Positions 2,401 through 60,061 of a DNA stretch of 64,000 nt are shown here, piece after piece. Positions within the stretch are counted from its first letter, which is position 1; every line of letters begins with the position of its first letter. The notes beneath the pieces are model-generated. The model worked only from the letters and a program-made list of their open reading frames with translations. It was not told the origin of the DNA and ran no database searches. Source of the DNA: Symmetrospora coprosmae. Taxonomy: Eukaryota; Basidiomycota; Cystobasidiomycetes; Symmetrosporaceae. The position numbers were made by a program, and so were the translations under genes. The stretch covers positions 1 to 64,000 of the forward strand of contig VUYT01000049.1 in assembly GCA_008802785.1 (NCBI GenBank), given 5' to 3'.

Positions 2401-3702
2401 TCACCGCCGCTGGCTGCCCATCCCCGGCGCTCCTCTTCCGCCCTGCTCTTTCCGGCGCTTCCTCTCGAGTTCCTCCTGGACGATGGCCTCCACTGCCGAC
2501 AGCGGTCGCTTTGTCCCAGCAGCAGCAGTGCCTGCACCGGGAGCTGGCTTCGGTGCCTTTAGCGGATTCGCTTTCAATGGGTTGGCTTTCGCTGCTTTGA
2601 ATGCGTTGAGCTTCTTTGGCGCCGACAGCACAGGCTGCGCAGGTGCCGAGGATAGTGTCGATGTCGAGGCGGTGGGCGCATTTTCGCTACTGTCTGCAGC
2701 CGTGGCCGTGAGTTCTGCAGTGCTTTCTGCGTTGGCAACTGGGGCAGTGCCATCTCCTGCTGCCGCAGTTGACGCCGCTGTTGCAGACTCCGGGGCTTCC
2801 GATGCGACTCCTGCTGGCGGCGCCGGCGGCGCACTCGGCTGACTAGCCTCCTTGCTGGCAACGGTAGCTGATGTGGATGATGGCACAGCCTTGCCTCCAA
2901 GCGCCATCTTGAATGGCTGTATGCTGCTGAGATCTATTGGCACTTCCTCCTCGGCACCTTCTTCGTCCCCTTCTTTCGCGCGCAGGGCTTCTGCTGCTCT
3001 CGCCCGCTCAATCTGATCATTCAAGAACCTCCGCTGCCGCTCTTCGTCGCCCATGTCCTGCCGCTCCTTCTTCATCGCTGCGTCGGAGCGCGCCAGTGCC
3101 GCTGGCGAGTTGTCGATCCAGCTGATGAACCATCCCTTTTCGGTCTCGTCGACATGGCAGATGCCCTCCTTGCCAAGCCACTGGACAAATCCCGTGAGGG
3201 TGACCCATTGCGTTGCATTCATGTGGGAGTGGTGCTTGTCCTGGATAAACTCCTGGTAGACCTGGTTCGCGCGGACTCGCTTGGTGCCCCAGCGCCGGGA
3301 GAGGAGGGCGAGAAAGTCGTCCTTGAACTCCTTCGAGTACTGCTCAATGTACGTGTGCGCGCTCTCGCCGACGACGAGCATCTGCCGGACGTGCCCTTCG
3401 GACAGCGAGTGCTGCTTGAAGGCGTTCTCGTCTCTACAGAACGGGGGGTGGCGGATTCGCACAGTCAGTTCTGGCTGTTGGGCAATACGCAGACTGGCGG
3501 GATAGACGCCCTCACCTGCATTGCTTCTCGCAGACCTGACAGTAGAATCGCAACCGCTGCAGTCCTTTTGCCTTGCTTGCGTTGGCAATGGCCTGTCGAG
3601 GGACGACCGGTCAGTGCCGCTCGTTCAGCCTCTCTGCGCCTCGAGCCGGGCAGCCCAGCACCTGCGCACCTTTGGGGTTCCTGCCTCTGCCTTCTTGCCC
3701 AT
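2401..3702 (-). CDS. KIN17-family DNA/RNA-binding zinc-finger protein
   Basis: Three exons (3702-3670, 3592-3516, 3433-2401) give 380 residues. The N-terminus MGKKAEAGTPKAIANASKAK splices into LRFYCQVCEKQCRDENAFKQH, the conserved KIN17 N-terminus with its CxxC...H zinc finger. A winged-helix-like block follows (TYIEQYSKEFKDDFLALLSR, then WVTLTGFVQWLGKEG and CHVDETEKGWFISWID). Residues from about 160 on are charged (RQRRFLNDQIERARAAEAL), then low-complexity Ala/Ser/Pro, ending in a basic SAVEAIVQEELERKRRK tail. KIN17 proteins are nuclear, bind curved DNA and RNA, and act in DNA repair, replication and mRNA processing. As is usual in fungi, no C-terminal KOW/SH3-like module is visible. It is divergently placed with the glycosyltransferase gene, about 290 bp between starts. 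Confidence 0.92.
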
Positions 3703-6900: not shown

Positions 6901-7690
6901 CATCTCCCTCTACCAGCCGAAAAACATTGAATTGCGACCAGAAGGCAGGAAGCGCTTCGACACCCACCAGATCTTCCATGACCTTGGTATGCCCGCGACC
7001 ATGCCATATCTCTCCCAGATTCCATGCTCGTGGGGAGCTGCCTACTTCCCGGAGCACTGGCGCGAGTTCCACCAGTTCCTCTCGCTTCGTCTGGCCGAGT
7101 CCGCCCTCGACATCACCGACTACATTGTCCCCGACATCCGGTCGAACCGCTGGCCAAAGTCGTGGAAGCGGTACATCATCGAGCTTGTCTACCTCCGCGG
7201 GTACAGCATGCTGTATCCCAACTACGAAGGGTTCCGCTCGCTCTCGACCAACCACCTCGAATTGGGCACGCACGTGAAGGACGATGCGGCTGCGCAACGG
7301 AGGCGCGAGGCGTTCAAGGTGCCGCTACTCGGGGAAGATGACAGCGTGCTCGAGGGCATGTCGCACGACACACTTCCTCCTTGGACTACGATGCCAGTCA
7401 TTGACTTCTGGGGCAGCATCGTCACCGAGGCAGAGATCGTGGCCAGAGCTCAAGCGACCAGGGAGGAGCTAGCACTCTGCGAAGTCGATCGAGATGGCAG
7501 CGGTGGTGCCTGGTCGCTTTCAGACGAGCTATCCTTCGATGCAGGGGATCTGCTGTGCCCACGAGAGGACAACCTTGACACGTACGCTGAAGAGCGGATC
7601 ACTCTGGCGGAACGGGAAGCACTGCTTGCGGAGCGTGAAGCCAGGCTAGCGGAGGAGGAAGAAGGTGTGGACAGTCATTCAGAGCAGTAG
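3993..7690 (+). CDS. type II membrane glycosyltransferase (GT2-like), large fungal form
   Basis: Three exons (3993-5043, 5231-6421, 6504-7690) give 1,142 residues with consistent phases. The N-terminal ~270 residues are Ser/Ala/Gly-rich and probably cytosolic. A hydrophobic segment, TLAFALVLLLFCYCVL, near residue 290 is a signal anchor, so the catalytic part should face the Golgi lumen. A long lumenal middle of unknown fold follows. The last exon opens with IDLVVITNNRPLSLHRLLSS, the Rossmann-type start of GT-A family 2 enzymes. It contains YGVLLEDDVEVSPLF (acidic EDD motif for metal and nucleotide sugar) and IPCSWGAAYFPEHWREF. The tail holds a Glu/Ala coiled segment (LAEREALLAEREARLAE). Donor sugar and acceptor cannot be read from sequence. 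An in-frame ATG at 3792 would add 67 residues; 3993 was preferred because it leaves room for a divergent promoter with KIN17. Confidence 0.8.
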
Positions 7691-13427: not shown

Positions 13428-15928
13428 CTAAGACGAACAGCTACACTGGAATCCGAGCATTGAGTTATCTCCCAAGCTGCACAGTCTCCTTTGCTCCTGC
13501 ACCTCGTCTGTCGGCTTTGTGCACACGGTTGGATCGATGGCATCCTCACCGTACTCCTCGAATGGATTGGTGGCCATGTCCAGCACACGCTGCAGGAACG
13601 CCTTGTCGTTGTCCTGCTCCAATCTCTGGATGGTCTCCTCGAGTACCCATTGCCGCAGGATGAAGCGTGGGTTGTGAGCGGCCATTCTCTTCCGGCGCGA
13701 ACTCGCTGCCGCGCCGCCAGACTTTTCAGACTCCTCAAGGCGAGCCTGCCAGGTGCTCAGCCAACTCTTCCAGTCTTCGCGGCAGGTGTCACGAAGGTGC
13801 TCCGGGACTTGAGCTTTAGGCAAGAGGCGGTCGAGGAATGCATCAATGGTTTTAGACGTTGTCGATTCGAACTGCGTCAACAGGCGGAACGTGCCGCTGA
13901 AGTCAAGCTTGTGTCGCTCCATGAGCTCAAGCAGTGGCGTGAAGAGCTGGGTGAAGTCGCTCTGCTGCGAGTCCAGTAGCCCAAGTTTCTGAAATGCCGT
14001 CAAGAAGGCAGTCAGCATGCTGCATCTCGGCAATACGTGCTTGTGGCAGACCCACCTGGCTCATCAGACGCTTGTACTCCTGGATGTGAACAGCCATGAA
14101 CTCCGAAGCTATCTCCTCGACGACCTTCAAGCCCTCGTCGTGCCAAGCCTCTAGCTTGCTGGTGTCCTCAGCCCATCCCTTGGGTGCCCCCGCTGGTCCC
14201 TCGCCAGCATCTCCGTTTCGCGCCATCTCGAGCTCGCAGCCAATGATCTCCGATAGAGCATTGCCAAATTTTTGAACGGCGTCGACGCCGATAGGCGGCT
14301 GGTTGCGGTACGAGTACCGTCCCTCTCCGTCGGAGTGATTGCAGATGTGGTTGGAGGAGTAAATGTCCATGAAGGCGTATCTGCAGTTAGAAGGGTGTCA
14401 GAAGTGGACGTAACGATCAGCGTCTGGACCCGATGACTCACGGTCCATAGTCAATCGTCAATCCAGAGATGCTGATGTTGTCGGTGTTCAGGACGCCATG
14501 CATGAACCCGCAGGCTTGCCACCTGGCAAAGGTCCGCGCGTTTCTGCGACTCGCCTCTCGGAGGACTCGCGCAGCCAAGCTCTTGTCCTCCGGGCCGCCC
14601 TGCACAGCATTGCCCGTTTTTGCGAAGCCAAAGACCTCCCTTCCTGCATAGTTGACGAGATCGCGGAGGGTGTCCCACTGGTCCCGGCTCCAGGGCAGCT
14701 CGAAGGAGCCGATGCGAAGCCAGGACGGAGCTACGCGGCAGACGACAGCGGCAGTCTCCATCTCCTCTCGCGCGACGTCAACGTCCGGGAGGTGCACCAG
14801 GCTGAGCGCCCGTGAGGTGGGCACGCCGAGCGCAGCCATGGCCTCGCTGCCGAGGTACTCGCGCACGGAGCTTCGCAGGACCGCCAGCCCGTCGGCGAAA
14901 CGGGAGTACGGGGTCCGGCCGGCTCCTTTCAGCTGCAGCTCCGCCACGGGTGGGTAATACACATTGTCCTGCTCATACGTCGGCCACTTCGACGGGGTAG
15001 TGTAGATGGAAATGGCTCGCCCATCACCGAGCTGGGACGCCCAGCTGCCGAATTGATGGCCGCCATAGCAAAGCGACCACGGTGCGAAACCTCGCTTGCC
15101 ATCTTTTGCTTCCTGGACCGCGACAATGTGCCCAGCGAGGAACTGCTCGAGCTCGTTCCGCTTTGCCGTCTCCTCGCCACCAGCATCGCTGCCACTCTTG
15201 AGGAACTCGAAAGCGTCACCAACATCCAAGGTCGGGAACAGGTCGGCGACGCTCTTGGCGGAGAGGCCGGCCAGAACAGGCGTTCCGACCGCATCGCGCC
15301 GTGCCTCGGACGTGTAGGCCGGGGTAGCTTTTCTGGCATCTCCTGCGATGACGGGCTTGACGGGCTCGCTGAGATCGGGCTCGAGGCTAGCGAGATAGTC
15401 CTCGACGTTCAGGGCCTGTGGACGTGACGGGCCGTCCTTCTGCGCCTGCGCTGCAGCTGCCTCAGGCGCTCCTTCCTTGACCGCACTTCCGTCACCAACG
15501 GCCTCGCCAGGCACCTTGCGCGGGCGGACCTGGTGCGGCTTGACCGCATACGGGAAGGACAGCGGGAGGGGCGTGGTGTACGAGAAGTGCGAGTTGTGAA
15601 CGGGGCGCGAGCGCCTCAAGGTTGTTGGCTTGGGTGCATAACCATCCTTGGAGGGATCGTCGGTCGTGGGCGGATGCTCGCTGTCGTAGGTGGAGAGCGA
15701 GAGCAGGGCCGACACGGATGGGACTGCTGGGTCGGGGGTGAGATACTCTGGCAGTGAGGGTGCCAGAGGGAGGCCCAAGATGGACGTCTTCTCCCCTCCC
15801 TGCTGTTGCTGCTGCTGAGTGTTGCTGCTCATGGCGCTCGCGGTGGCGGTAAAGTGACGTCGCTGGAAGTGACTGGCGAGAGCTGCAAGGCGGCGACGGC
15901 TGTGATGGAGGCGATTGATGGAAGCCAC
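13428..15928 (-). CDS. FMP40: SelO/Fmp40 protein adenylyltransferase, mitochondrial
   Basis: Three exons (15928-14442, 14380-14056, 13988-13428) give 790 residues. The first ~30 residues are basic and lack acids (MASINRLHHSRRRLAALAS), fitting a mitochondrial targeting peptide, followed by a Gln run. SelO pseudokinase blocks are clear: CYGGHQFGSWASQLGDGRAI, ELQLKGAGRTPYSRFADG, SVREYLGSEAMAALGVPT and HGVLNTDNISISGLTIDYGP. SelO enzymes bind ATP in a flipped orientation and attach AMP to substrate proteins; the yeast homologue Fmp40 acts in mitochondria in redox control. The C-terminus ends in Cys-Ser-Cys-Ser-Ser, where animal SelO has selenocysteine near the end, so the fungal protein uses cysteine. 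The segment from residue 45 to 200 is longer and lower in complexity than I would expect. Confidence 0.93.
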
Positions 15929-16122
15929 GCTGGGCAGTTGGGGCTACAGTCAAACAGTGTGTCGCGCTTGTGAGAAAGCGGGCTGTAATGCAGGAAGCAA
16001 GAGTGAGAGCAGGGACAGCCTGCCAGTGCCCGGCGGTAGGGAGGAAGTTGAGCGGCCCGGAGCTTTCGCCACCCACTCGCTGACACAGCCTGCCAGGCTA
16101 AGACTGATCTACAAAGCTACAC

Positions 16123-53385: not shown

Positions 53386-53926
53386 CCGTTGCACGACGGC
53401 GACAAACGGGGATTTCGGAGTCGAGGAGCCGCGCGGGCTGGTCTCATGGTCGCTCGGACTGGCAGGCGGAGGAGGCATCAGCGCAGCGGAAATTTGGCCA
53501 GCCGCTGTATCACGTAGAGCAGATGTCACGTATGTGCCAGCATTACGTGATTGCCCAGAACTCGTCCAGGAGACGAAGTGTCGCAAAATCGCCTCGCTTG
53601 TTTCTCCTTGACTCTGCTCCTCCCACTAGCCATCTTGACAGCCTGAGAGAGTGTGGCCTGACCTCTCGGCCAAGCATTCTAGCTGTCGCGTTCTAGCTAC
53701 AATGAGCCTACGAAAGCACGATCCGCAAGAGAGGCGACGTCTTTCAACGTGCCGTCCCATGCGAAACACTGAGGGGGTTCCACGCTCGGGACAGACCAGC
53801 TGCCCCACCCCGCGTGGAAAGGGTCTACCTATGTGCGAGAAGGAGAAAGTAGCTTGCGAGAGACGGGAGACGGGAGACGGGAGACGGAAAACGAGAGCGG
53901 AGAAGAGAGAGGAGAGGACGAGGAGG
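53386..53926. other. tail-to-tail spacer
   Basis: 541 bp between the ends of the mitochondrial protein gene (plus) and the Fanzor-like gene (minus). It holds a short tandem repeat at 53861. If the Fanzor reading is right, a guide RNA overlapping the 3' end of that gene would be expected here, but none can be recognised by eye. Confidence 0.4.
53861..53887 (+). repeat. 7-bp tandem repeat
   Basis: Four or so copies of gggagac just beyond the stop codon of the Fanzor-like gene. Confidence 0.75.
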
Positions 53927-56900
53927 TCAAGTGCGGACGAACGTGTGAGGCTGGTTGGGGTCAGGAGCGACGTAGCCCGCCCAGGTACCCGCAGGGATGG
54001 TCACGAACGGCTGTTCGGCAGGACCGACATTGAACGGCGGCCGCCGACCATCGGTCTCGATGTAGTGTCCGAGGATGTAGCAGTGGAGACCGCCGCTGTT
54101 GGCATCTCGGTTGAAGACGACTTGAAGCTGTCCAGGAGGGTTGTTGGCGTTCGGTGCCGCACGCAAGGACGCGTCGAGAGCGTGTGCTTGTCCGAGCGTT
54201 GCTGGGTGTGGGCAAAGAGCATGCGTGCAGCCCTGCACCCTATGTGTCGGTCTCCCTGAAATGGTGTGCAGTGTCAGCCACGGCGACGACGGTCGGAGAG
54301 AGAGCAGACGCGCGCACATTCTGGAACGCCATGAGCGCTAACGAGACCAGCTAGCGTGCCATCAGCTCGCTGACAGTGACGTTGCAGACCATGATGGCCA
54401 TTGTTGCGACGCCGTCGCTTGACAGTCCTGTTCGGAGGAGAGTCACCTCAGTTAGAGCATTGCATTGCAAAGCCTCGCTCGCATAGACATACTTGTGCGC
54501 TGCGTTCTGGCACTTGAAGACCACGCGCTCTAGCGTCTGCACGCGATGGACATGCTGGTTTGCCTGAGGCTGCACTGCGCCATTCTGCCAGATATCGCCC
54601 TGGAAAGAGCAAGCTGCGATAGTAGACGTGCCGCGCTCGCGTACGAGAACGACAGTGTGCCCGAGAATAGCCAAGAGGCGAGCCAAGGACTGTAGCACGT
54701 ATCGTCAGTTATTTTGCCATAGAAGTCAACAAGCCTAGATCGAGCAACCTACAAGCTGTGCCGCTGCCGCGTGTCCGCCTGCCCAAGTGTTGCCCTGTCC
54801 GAAGCCGAATGCCACAAGTGCTTTGAGTAGGTGGACAGGGCGGTTGAAGCGGATGCGGAGAGCATCTCGGATTGAGCCAAGAGCGCGCTCTCGACGTGGA
54901 TGTTTGAGGTGGAGAGGGCGACCGGAAGCATGGAACTCGGCGTGCGTAATGTCGCCCACGACGTATCGAGCCAGGCGAGTCTCCTGGGAGGCGCGAGTGA
55001 CCTCGACTGTTCGGCGCCGTCGCGTGGCCCTGACACGGCGTTTGTAGAATGCTCGCAATTTGCCGTACACAAGCGCTTTCTGCGCTGTGTAGACCGCGTT
55101 CTGCGGCGGTAAGATTGATAAGCCTGTCAGTAGCTTCCCTATGATGAGGAAAAGATAGGCAAACTCACCAAGCGAATGTCGCAGCCTTCTCTCGCGATCT
55201 GCAAGCCGCGCAAGTGATCTATCATGGTGTTTACCGAATCGCGATTGAGCAGAACTGCACGAGCTGCATCAGATGCACGGGCATCTCTCTCGTTGCGATT
55301 TGACCAAGCTGTGGCTGTAGCCTCCAGGCTGTGACGTCCTCGCTCGAGTCGAACATGCGCTGCCGTGCCTGCTCCGGCTTGATGCGCTTCTGGCAGGTGC
55401 GCGTCGACAGCTGCCACCTGATAGACCTGTCCAGGATCCATGCCAATCAAGCGACGGTTGGGGTTATGAAAGACTGCGGCGGGGAGAAGTGGCGTGCGGG
55501 AAATGGAAGTAAGAGAGCCGGTGCTGTCCCCGCCCGGGTATGTTGTTTCGGGCGGAGGTACATTCTGATGCCGTGCGATCTTGACCAGCTCTTCGACGCG
55601 GGTGATGCGGGACTGCCGAACGTAGGCTGGGACATTCGAAGCCATCTTGACGCGTATCTTGAGGTCCTGACCGTCTGTGATGATGGCGATCGATTCGAGC
55701 TGATTGTCCAAGCCGCCTGTGTACAGGAGGGTCAGCTTCGTTAGACTCGAAAGACTCGAAAAGATGCTGTTGCACTAACATAAGCGTATAGTATCCGGGC
55801 TCGTTACGGTCTGGCCGAACATCCCAGGAAAGAAGCGCGCAAAGGCAGCACGCTGAGCCTCGCCTGTCATCCCACTTGCGGCCGCGTAGCGTAGGGGAGC
55901 GTTGGGGAGGTGAGGCTAACACAAAATGTCAGTGAATTGATATCTTGGGGAATGGAGTACTGAGACAGACTCACCGTCCGATTGATAGCAACGTCGACGT
56001 CGGTGAACTGATACATGCCTCCTCTCGGCCGTCGGAGAGCAGGGAGCAGGGCGCTCGCAAGAATCTTGTAGTCGATGGGAATACGCTCATCTCGATATTC
56101 ATTCTTATCCGGGGTGAGCTTGATGCCCTTGTAGTTGCCAGGCAAGACACCAAGCGCATTGGCAGATAGATGTCGGTGCATTTGACCGGCGTACCGCAAG
56201 AAGAGGAAAAGACGAGTACCGATTCGCCAGTCTCGCGCCATGATGTCATCCCAGCCCTGATTGTGCCCGGCATCGTCGTAAATGTCGCGAGTGGTAGGGT
56301 AATTCACGAGTGGGGCTGCCGGGGGAACGTTGGTGAAGGTAGGAAGATGTGGAAGCAGAGCGGAGTTGAGCAGCTGAATGATGGGCTGAATAACTCGGAG
56401 CCACCGAGCTCTGTGCGCTTGGCTGATTGGCGCGGGAAACATCGGATGCTGTCCGTTGTAGGGCAGCGCGGGTGCATTCAAAGGGTAGTGAGCAAGCTTG
56501 ATGAAGCGGGGATGCAAGAACGCTGCTGTTCGCTCTGCAAGCGTATCAAAATGCGCAGCTCCCTGCCCTTGCGGGAAAAGAACTCTGCGCAGATCGCTCA
56601 AGACGACGCGGATCGCAGCAGGCACGGCCTTCTGAAGGTGTGTCTTCAAGTTACCGGCTCGCAAGCCTTTCACCTGGTCGACAAACGAACGCCAACTGTA
56701 CGTGGACGTCCGCAGATCGACCATGGTGCTGCCTGGCACTCGAATGCATGCATGCACGTTGGACTGGTAGATCTGCCGTAGACTGCCGCCAGCAAATTGG
56801 GGCGTGAGGAGACAGTCCAGCACTTCGCGCTGGAAGCCGTAGTGCAGCTGGAAGGGATTGATGGGATCTGGATGTGCGGGACGTGTCGTAGCGGGAAATG

Positions 56901-57246
56901 CGGGGATGATGTGTGGGATGGCCAGTGGGACAGGTCCGAGAAGGATGGGAGGAACGCTGAAATGGTCATAGGAAGGAAACGGGAAGAGGGCGGTAGGCTG
57001 ACGGGTAACAACTGCGCCGAGCGGGACAGTGAGGTATCCGTACTGAGCGAGCTGGTTGTCGAGGATGTTTGCGAGGAAATCGTGCTGAAGAACAGTGAAC
57101 TCGTAGTGGAGCTGAGTCGCTTCGCCAGCGAAGTGTCCAACTTGCCAGACGAGTCGTGTTTTCTTGCGCGAGCTCCAGAGAGGGGGAAGAGCGGCACGGA
57201 GCTTGACACGCGGGTAGGTACGGATGCCTGGATTACTGGGGGCCAT
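53927..57246 (-). CDS. Fanzor/TnpB-like RuvC nuclease, diverged, with a long N-terminal region
   Basis: Seven exons (57246-55975, 55915-55780, 55716-55169, 55100-54753, 54689-54493, 54427-54318, 54255-53927) give 979 residues, every phase consistent. Residues 1-560 are unlike anything I recognise. From there: PNRRLIGMDPGQVYQVAAVD (RuvC-I, Asp563); a helical basic part (KLRAFYKRRVRATRRRRTVE); LKALVAFGFGQGNTWAGGHA leading to GHTVVLVRERGTSTI, which matches the TnpB/Fanzor V.E..TS segment (RuvC-II, Glu786); a Cys/His stretch with HRVQGCTHALCPH where the zinc ribbon should be; then QLQVVFNRDANSGGL (RuvC-III, Asp921), like the NRD.N motif. The clean CxxC pairs are missing and the last two exons are the least certain. 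It shares a 390 bp promoter region with the coiled-coil gene at 57637. Alternative: a host RuvC/RNase H-fold protein of another family. Confidence 0.6.
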
Positions 57247-57636: not shown

Positions 57637-59544
57637 ATGTCAGCCAATTCGATGAGCATGTCGCCGGCGCCAGAACCTGCTTTGCGCGATCTGAAAAGCC
57701 TCGAAGAGAGCATCACTCGACTTGTGCAGACAAGCCTCGGAGAGATAAAGGAGGAGATGCAGACAGGCTTTCAGAGTATGAACGATAAGCTCGACGGCTT
57801 CGAGAACGTGCTGCAGGAAGGACTTCGGTCAGGTGTGCCAACAAAGTACGCCCAGCAGATTCGAGATCAGGAACGTCAGCTACGCGAGCTGCGCGGGCAG
57901 CTGGCCAGCAGCGAAGCGACCGCAGAGCGGTTGCGGAACACGGACGGCATGAAGCTCGGTCAGGCGCTACAGGCAGTCAGTGCTGCAGCGAGACAAGTAA
58001 CAGCGCCTGCCAAGACAAAGTTCACGGAGTTAGTTGGAGACGTCGTTCGGACCAAGGTGATGCAGTATCATTCCGCCGGTCCTTTGGCCGTAGCTGACGG
58101 GTGTTGCCAATCAGGAAATGACCAAGGCGAAAATTAGAAGTCGATTTAGAGCGTTGACGCGTGTCAATGGGGCAGATACCCTGCCAGCGGAGAGCAGGAG
58201 CACATTGGACAAGAAGCATCCTCTGTGGCCGCTGTTCAGCTCGATTGCGAGCGAAGGTGTGTATAGACGCGCAGCGAGCATGCAGTTTAATGAACGCGCC
58301 TACTGATACCCTTGCTATCAGTTGACATGATCAACTTCTTCGTCGACCCCGCGAACCGAGCGTTGGCCAACATGCTGCCGCAGCCCGGCAATTGTCAGCT
58401 TTGGCTGACGGAGCAGCCCTGCAGAACAATCGGAGACATGCCCGATGACAGCCTCGAGCTGCCTGTGCCGGAGTCGTTGGGTCAGCCTGAGCGCAAAGGA
58501 AAAGGTGTTGCTAGCAAGGCATCGACCGGCTTGGCGTCCCAGCTTGCATCCACACGTGCGCCAGGCACCGACGCTGCCGTCGACTTGCACCCCACCGACC
58601 TTGCGCAACTCTTCTCGCTTCCGGAAGGCCCGCCCACCACGTTCTACGCCGATCTCTCGGCTCCTCTCATGTCACAGGCGCCTGCGGCTGAGCCTGGCAC
58701 CAGCTCTCGGCCTTCAGTCACAGCCAGGTCCACCTCGTCTGCATCGAGCAAGCGCAAAAAGTCTGCCAGTCCCCCGCCGGCTACGGGTAACATCCTCTAC
58801 GACAATTACAAAGATTTGAACAGCTACCTAGCCGGAGAGTGGGGATTCACGAAAGAGCCGGAGGCCACACACCTTCACCGGAGCCAGTCCAACCGCGAGC
58901 TCTCCGCAGATGCGGAAGAGCGCCCACCGACCCAACGTCGACGGGCAGAGACCACAGCGGCCGTCAGGGTGCATCCGTCGGAGCTTCCGACCTTTCACAG
59001 CCAGAGTCTCGCCCTTTTCAACCTGCACTCGACGCCGGCACACAGCGACCCTTTCATTGCTCAATCAGCCCCGCCTCAGCAGAGCACTCATCTCTTCTCC
59101 GAATCTAGCTTCCCTCCTCCCTCTTTCAGGCCTGCCATGGAAAGGCAACCCTCCTTCCCAGCCTACCCATCAGCGACTGCGGGAAACCGCTCGTTTCCGC
59201 CAACGTTCACCTTGCCAGACGCTCATCGAATGAGATCGGCTACCACCTCTACGATGAGCTCCGCATCAAGTCGCCCGCAGTACAGTCCCACCAGCCCTGT
59301 CACCTTCCAGGCTCCGACGAGCCCAGCCCGCTCCCGAACGACCAGTAGGAACACCAGTCCGACGCACCGCCTGAGGCGACAGCCGTCTAAAGCAAGCAGC
59401 TTGCACGGCAGCTTCTTGCCTGAAGAGACTCCTGGGCAGCTGGAGTCGGACGCGGCGAGCCGTACACGAGAGGCTCGTAGAGATGCAAGCTACACAGTAC
59501 CGATCTCACATGTACCCCACGACGCTAAGACCTTGCTCAAATAA
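57637..59544 (+). CDS. coiled-coil protein, divergent partner of the Fanzor-like gene
   Basis: Three exons (57637-58056, 58115-58256, 58322-59544) give 594 residues in phase. Residues 15-110 form a coiled coil (LKSLEESITRLVQTSLGEIK, then KYAQQIRDQERQLRELRGQL). Residues ~140-230 look globular: KEMTKAKIRSRFRALTRVNG, DKKHPLWPLFSSIASE and VDMINFFVDPANRALANMLP. The rest is Ser/Pro/Thr-rich and probably disordered, with ILYDNYKDLNSYLAGEWGFT as the only ordered-looking island, and basic KRKKSAS that could be a nuclear signal. I do not recognise the family. Its position back-to-back with the nuclease-like gene suggests co-expression, which is inference. Confidence 0.7.
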
Positions 59545-59691: not shown

Positions 59692-59713
59692 CTCTTGTCG
59701 ATGGTGGCCACCT

Positions 59714-59828
59714 CAATGCTCATGCTCAATGCTCATGCTCAATGCTCAATGCTCAATGCTCAGTGCTCACTGCTCAATGCTCGTCCTCAAGATTAATGCT
59801 CGATGCTCGATGCCCAATGCTCAGTGCC
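59714..59828 (+). repeat. 7-8-bp minisatellite
   Basis: About fourteen copies of a unit of the form aatgctc with occasional one-base additions and substitutions, ending in diverged copies. Confidence 0.85.
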
Positions 59829-59951
59829 CAGCTTCATCCACTACGTACTTACAGGCACTGGCTATACCAATCATTCGAGAAGATACAGGTTGAGCCCGCC
59901 TGGCAGACCGTTCCACCCGTCCAGCCCAATCCTCCACACTGGCAAACGGGT

Positions 59952-60061
59952 CGCTTGCGAACGGGGCGCTTGCGAACGGGGCGCTTGCGAACGGGTCGCT
60001 TGCGAACGGTGCGCTTGCGAACGGGGCGCTCGCGAACGGGGCGCTCGGCGGGGCGCTCGAA
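59952..60061 (+). repeat. 15-bp minisatellite
   Basis: Six full copies of a 15-bp unit (cgcttgcgaacgggg) with single-base variants, then two shortened copies. All ends about 155 bp before the CPL1-like start codon. Being a multiple of three it stays open in several frames, which creates false ORFs. Confidence 0.9.

Follow-up and report, generated by a model that had tools for sequence, protein, structure and literature searches.

The window, a stretch of 64,000 nucleotides corresponding to positions 1-64000 of contig C43 in the Symmetrospora coprosmae genome (20.05 Mb in 77 contigs, GC content about 59%), carries on its minus strand a gene that encodes, as the probable reading of its sequence, a distant relative of Fanzor1, itself a eukaryotic relative of the CRISPR nucleases. 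Taken as a whole, we consider it probable that this Fanzor1-like but non-canonical protein is a divergent fungal nuclease that cuts DNA under RNA guidance; the window copy would be a formerly mobile gene that has settled at a single locus and is maintained by selection.

The gene extends from position 57246 to position 53927 and consists of seven exons encoding 979 amino acids with a single terminal stop; its six introns are 59-68 nt long and all have GT...AG borders. This splice model bears out the preliminary description of the locus, which had proposed 979 residues in seven exons with the motifs GMDPG, VRERGTST and NRDANSG in that order, and places GMDPG at residues 561-565, VVLVRERGTST at 781-791 and NRD at 919-921. 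A shorter exon 6 with GTCTGC as its donor, giving a protein of 955 amino acids, was rejected in favour of a longer one because a split Trp codon further on is common to all three members of the family described below. The features of the locus are collected in Table 1, together with other observations along the window.

Table 1. Exons of the Fanzor1-like gene and further features of the window.
Feature	Position	Strand	Content
Exon 1	55975-57246	-	Encodes residues 1-424, where the WED/REC lobe is expected; frame open, with GTGAGT as donor; homologues: P0001 88%, P0002 97% over part, C21 34%, C25 27%
Exon 2	55780-55915	-	Both flanking introns have C21 counterparts
Exon 3	55169-55716	-	ITDG (482-485) and RuvC-I GMDPG with D563
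Exon 4	54753-55100	-	Between RuvC-I and RuvC-II; VAFGFGQGNTWAGG near exon end
Exon 5	54493-54689	-	VVLVRERGTST carrying E786, the alternative glutamate of RuvC-II; AAC795 follows, replacing CxxC; C828
Exon 6	54318-54427	-	Basic stretch and GHHGLQRHC852; end set by split Trp codon
Exon 7	53927-54255	-	H875-x4-C880-x4-C885, NRD with D921, RRPPF945, stop
3' flank	53620-53926	-	Expected site of omega-RNA and right end; none detected
Gene 2	57637-59544	+	Exons 57637-58056, 58115-58256, 58322-59544; 594 aa
Tandem arrays	59712-59827 and 59945-60045		Period 7 (CTCAATG) and 15 (AACGGGGCGCTTGCG), between gene 2 and next gene
Next gene	60219 onward	+	Signal-peptide-like start, cysteine-rich stretches (by eye)
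KIN17 homologue	2404-3624	-	Assigned by Pfam
SelO homologue	14441-15943	-	Assigned by Pfam

The catalytic acids D563, E786 and D921, whose retention had been proposed in the preliminary description, are indeed present and are invariant in the window gene and in the two related genes on contigs C21 and C25, as are D484, G485, T789, S790, C828, C852, H875 and R920. The RuvC-I motif reads GMDPG in the window protein, GMDGG in C21 and AMDGG in C25, so that the latter two have DGG instead of DPG. In RuvC-II the glutamate falls within E786-R-G-T789-S790, of which the E and the TS are unchanged across the three members. DPG and an alternative glutamate are named as two marks of Fanzors by Yoon et al. 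(PMC10711439), where the rule is that this RuvC-II glutamate stands just before [TS][TS] and where the TDG motif is given as characteristic of the Fanzor1 WED domain. This motif occurs as ITDG in the window protein and C21 and as NSDG in C25, and would likewise be located in the WED domain. At the C-terminal end, PDB alignments of the SpuFz1 and PpFz1 chains have the same spacings as the window series H875-x4-C880-x4-C885...NRD-x23-F945. Overall, ITDG, DPG, ExxTS, H-x4-C-x4-C, NRD and F match Fanzor1 in order and spacing, and most of them do so in C21 too.

When the C-terminal halves of the three members were combined in a profile and compared by hhalign with the C-termini of SpuFz1 and PpFz1, a score of 28.2 was obtained, against a maximum of 18.0 and a mean of 12.3 in 100 column shuffles and 10.2 for the reversed profile; the associated hhalign probability was low, at 15.2% (P 0.0017). 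Whole-protein profiles yielded 1.9% (P 0.026) with two members and 8.8% (P 0.0038) with three. The catalytic acids, the order and spacing of the motifs and this profile match thus support, at the level of sequence, the earlier assignment to a Fanzor-type protein. Smith-Waterman scores against the C-termini of PpFz1 and L79 did not rise above shuffles. No Fanzor, TnpB or Cas12 match was returned by Pfam, NCBIfam, PADLOC, PHROGs or PDB sequences, in searches run mostly with the 955-aa model and its C21 counterpart, and what few hits there were either had no relation to these proteins or fell short of the curated cut-offs; Pfam gave no family for the four window ORFs tried or for the 955-aa protein of the first model, and PF07282 (Cas12f1-like_TNB) had no match in the whole genome at E 0.001. 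A protein search with residues 470-955 of the 955-aa model scored 7996 candidates, not one of which reached an E of 1, and none of the 40 stretches from viral contigs searched with the Fz1 pair was confirmed. Among open full-text articles on Fanzors, none also named Basidiomycota or Rhodotorula, or fungal genomes together with yeast; earlier catalogues may contain relatives of the window gene.

A departure from canonical Fanzor1 concerns the zinc ribbon, which is unusual, in line with the preliminary description: the first knuckle, TSxxCxxC, is missing in all three members, its site being occupied by AAC in the window protein and C21, with no equivalent in C25. The strict Fanzor1 motif of Bao and Jurka, D-X(125,275)-[TS][TS]-XX-[C4 zinc finger]-X(5,50)-RD as given in PMC3627910, is not matched by the window protein, where residue 793, at which the first Cys is due, is Ala; the spacings do fit (225 between D563 and T789, 34 between C885 and R920). 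Since this strict motif is absent, we classified the protein as Fanzor1-like and not as canonical Fanzor1. The window protein has ten cysteines and the C21 protein eight, and the five in common (C795, C828, C852, C880 and C885) all lie in the ribbon region, only C828 and C852 being also found in C25. As these common cysteines cluster there, metal binding may persist in another arrangement.

The roughly 560 residues that precede RuvC-I had been regarded as an extra N-terminal region of unknown nature, a claim that found no support; an additional unknown domain was rejected in favour of a simpler reading. In SpuFz1 the RuvC-I Asp likewise comes late, only at residue 383 according to PMC11423790, and the TDG motif known from the Fanzor1 WED domain lies at 483-485 of the window protein; for these reasons the stretch would most simply be a WED/REC lobe that exceeds its SpuFz1 counterpart by about 180 residues. 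An AlphaFold model of exon 1 alone, with two close relatives as alignment, had a pLDDT of 29.9.

The relatives within the genome were recovered by protein comparison. The C21 gene, found with exon 1 as query (34%, E 1.4e-48), has a model of 1005 codons and is 39% identical to the window protein from end to end. All six introns have the same phase in the two genes and five of the six fall in the same alignment column, the first C21 intron lying 5 columns off window intron 1 within a gapped stretch. The third member, on C25, was found with the C21 protein (E 1.6e-5, 25% identity) and contains one in-frame stop. Three of its five introns match window introns 4, 5 and 6 (one of them 3 columns off, at a gap); its intron 1 shares the phase of window intron 1 at a distance of 13 columns, its intron 2 is without a match, and nothing in this gene corresponds to window intron 3. 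P0003 agrees with exon 1 of the C25 gene in 424 of 426 positions. Upstream of the C25 gene, locus L033 (C25:204500-213397) holds at 7061-7624 on the plus strand a frame that we take to be Gag-like and of a Gypsy-type retroelement, an assignment made by eye from its motif. In the C21 locus (L034), positions 306-1505 and 2439-3627 form a direct duplication with 68% DNA identity near the sister element.

The C21-type element was present at seven places: a whole copy on C21, a copy from exon 4 onward at the start of contig C14, a 5'-truncated copy on C12, the right end alone at the starts of C44 and C3, and the gene-2 side at the contig starts C25:1-503 and C57:1-503. At an eighth place, on C8 (L051, 1735-2293), only a gene-2 fragment was observed (77% DNA identity over 559 bases), and the first 9 kb of C8 gave no convincing nuclease match (best tblastn E 0.18). 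C44 and C3 begin at an identical base inside the 3' end of the element and C14 begins inside exon 4 (L038, L039, L031); as these contigs start within the element, near-identical copies are probably missing from the assembly. C25 and C57 (L041 and L042, first 1.1 kb) also start at an identical base, inside the C21-type gene 2. Past the element border the two flanks resemble each other at 87-88%, with GTCCGCGCGCGGAC-like hairpins and pieces that recur in C60 and C3.

Four of the five right ends have a sharp border, ...GGGCGGGAAANCCGC, followed by unlike flanks, and the C12 end departs from the common sequence about 25 nt earlier. Directly before the border lies a near-invariant stretch of about 113 nt with a stable predicted fold. 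Over the first 93 columns past the stop codon, C21 and C14 agree in 91, against 672 of 807 columns upstream of exon 7, while both C21-C12 and C14-C12 agree in 86 of 93 with the early departure of C12 included. The 116-117-nt ends fold into three predicted hairpin regions with z values of -2.80 (C14) and -3.14 (C21), and a 74-nt part of the C21-family end also folds more stably than shuffles; a 304-nt fold including coding sequence was no more stable than shuffles (z 0.23). An Rfam search gave no lead, and no inverted repeats were recognised by eye in the C21 element. Its right-end hairpin recalls the ends of Helitrons. Fanzor1 guide RNAs have been predicted with three stems (PMC10711439).

Over 307 codons of exons 4-7, C21 and C14 differ by a dN of 0.033 and a dS of 0.465 (dN/dS 0.07); judged by these substitutions, the family is under purifying selection, and the low dN relative to dS argues that, in the sister family, selection on the protein acts on the splicing of the last exons, including the NRD exon. 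Synonymous divergence between the two copies falls to 0.155 in the last 64 codons from 0.568 upstream. Change at 4-fold sites falls significantly in the C14-C12 pair (1/36 at the 3' end vs 9/20) but not in C21-C12 or C21-C14; gene conversion may therefore explain part of the 3'-end conservation. The features of the C21 family would be expected of a live Fanzor element with an omega-RNA, for which the conserved end is a candidate.

Carriage by a transposable element was thus found for the C21 family but not for the window copy. The DNA of the window gene had no other match in the genome in a search that skipped very common words, and none of 23 listed pairs of terminal inverted repeats around the copy stood out. 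Its 3' flank aligned with the 3' end of the C21 family no better than shuffles did (242 of 500 scored as well), and the C25 3' flank was not similar to that end either; eight 110-nt folds of the window flank gave z values from -1.69 to +0.84, and the stretch 53780-53926 gave +0.81. Metagenome sequences provided close relatives of exon 1, namely P0001 and P0002 (242/250 residues identical in the latter), and these suggest a retained, immobile copy. Compared with P0001, 375 of 424 exon 1 residues agree against 10 of 19 intron-encoded ones (Fisher P 0.0002), in a single comparison that covers exon 1 alone. It is possible that the window copy has been domesticated.

Gene 2 of the window is arranged head to head with the nuclease gene, and the C21 gene has a neighbour in the same place and orientation. 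Both neighbours have two introns, of phase 0 and 1 as read by eye. Over the first 220 or so residues, similarity between the two gene 2 proteins was not significant, since 157 of 2000 shuffles did equally well; with the coiled coil removed, 1574 of 2000 shuffles did, so that we do not claim the two as proven homologues. The last exon of gene 2 (106 codons) is intact in C21, C25 and C57, with dN/dS values of 0.29, 0.55 and 0.50 for the three pairs; Pfam hits on the C21 gene 2 were all below curated cut-offs and mostly to coiled coils. The pairing of nuclease and gene 2 is suggestive only.

In the explanation that we favour, the N-terminal WED/REC lobe would bind a guide RNA and the RNA-DNA hybrid, and the C-terminal RuvC domain, with D563, E786, D921 and a rebuilt zinc ribbon, would cut DNA. 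If the window copy still uses a guide RNA, this would have diverged or be supplied in trans, for instance by the sister elements. A bolder proposal, which we regard as rather unlikely, is a separate fungal Fanzor1 branch with a rebuilt zinc ribbon and a two-gene element made of the nuclease and a head-to-head coiled-coil partner, the window copy being a domesticated pair that may draw guides in trans from its mobile sisters. It is unlikely that the gene, though derived from Fanzor1, no longer performs RNA-guided cutting and is retained for another role, for instance RNA or DNA binding or control of the sister elements: such a loss would be consistent with the altered zinc ribbon, with the existence of metagenome relatives at 88% and 97%, and with the failure to find an omega-RNA-like stretch or a second DNA copy for the window gene, but the three acids are kept at 39% and 25% identity.

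The failure to recognise mobile ends or a second copy would equally suit a functionless relic of a dead transposon, intact merely through recency. This we regard as quite improbable, given that all 979 codons and six introns are intact, that the acids are kept although the nearest relative in the genome is just 39% identical, and that exon residues are better kept than intron-encoded ones in the single exon 1 comparison with P0001. The weakest candidate is another RuvC/RNase H-like or unrelated protein with Fanzor-like motifs by chance, in keeping with the lack of a relevant family-library match, of pairwise significance and of a high hhalign probability. Such a coincidence is very improbable, since the profile score exceeds all 100 shuffles, the window gene has the Fanzor features correctly ordered and spaced, most of them being present in C21 as well, and a mobile sister family has an omega-RNA-like end. 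Should the Fanzor1-like reading hold, a long, diverged and intron-rich branch would be added to the eukaryotic RNA-guided nucleases, and its altered zinc ribbon would test how much of this domain is needed. Within one 20-Mb genome, a family with several live copies would exist alongside a lone settled copy, opening the host role of Fanzors and their possible domestication to direct test, with an omega-RNA candidate precise enough for small-RNA sequencing.

Among known systems, Fanzor1 (SpuFz1 8GKH, PpFz1 9CF0, GtFz1 9CER) shares with the window protein TDG before RuvC-I, DPG and the alternative Glu just before TS; SpuFz1 and PpFz1 also share H-x4-C-x4-C followed by NRD and an RPxxF-like end at equal spacing, and a further likeness, in the sister family, is that the sequence separating the stop codon from the right end is conserved and predicted to fold. 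The window protein differs in its length: it has 979 aa, whereas PMC11423790 puts most Fz1 at 600-700. The window gene also lacks the first CxxC knuckle, has six introns and lies outside a recognisable element, and the C21 and C25 members have DGG in RuvC-I. Fanzor2 and TnpB (IS607, IS605) likewise have the D-E-D pattern in RuvC and a zinc motif ahead of RuvC-III, but theirs is a CxxC..CxxC ribbon in the TnpB and L79 alignments, and their N-terminus is short, unlike that of the window protein. The glutamate of TnpB usually precedes the zinc motif by about 50 residues, according to PMC10711439, and in this the window gene differs. The Spu-1 Fanzor elements of Spizellomyces are described in PMC10432273 as a single ORF between inverted repeats, whereas the C21 element has a second, divergent gene and no inverted repeats recognised by eye; they resemble it in having several copies per genome and a right-end RNA region, with a 75-nt scaffold and a 14-15 nt guide in Spu-1, followed by a variable flank.
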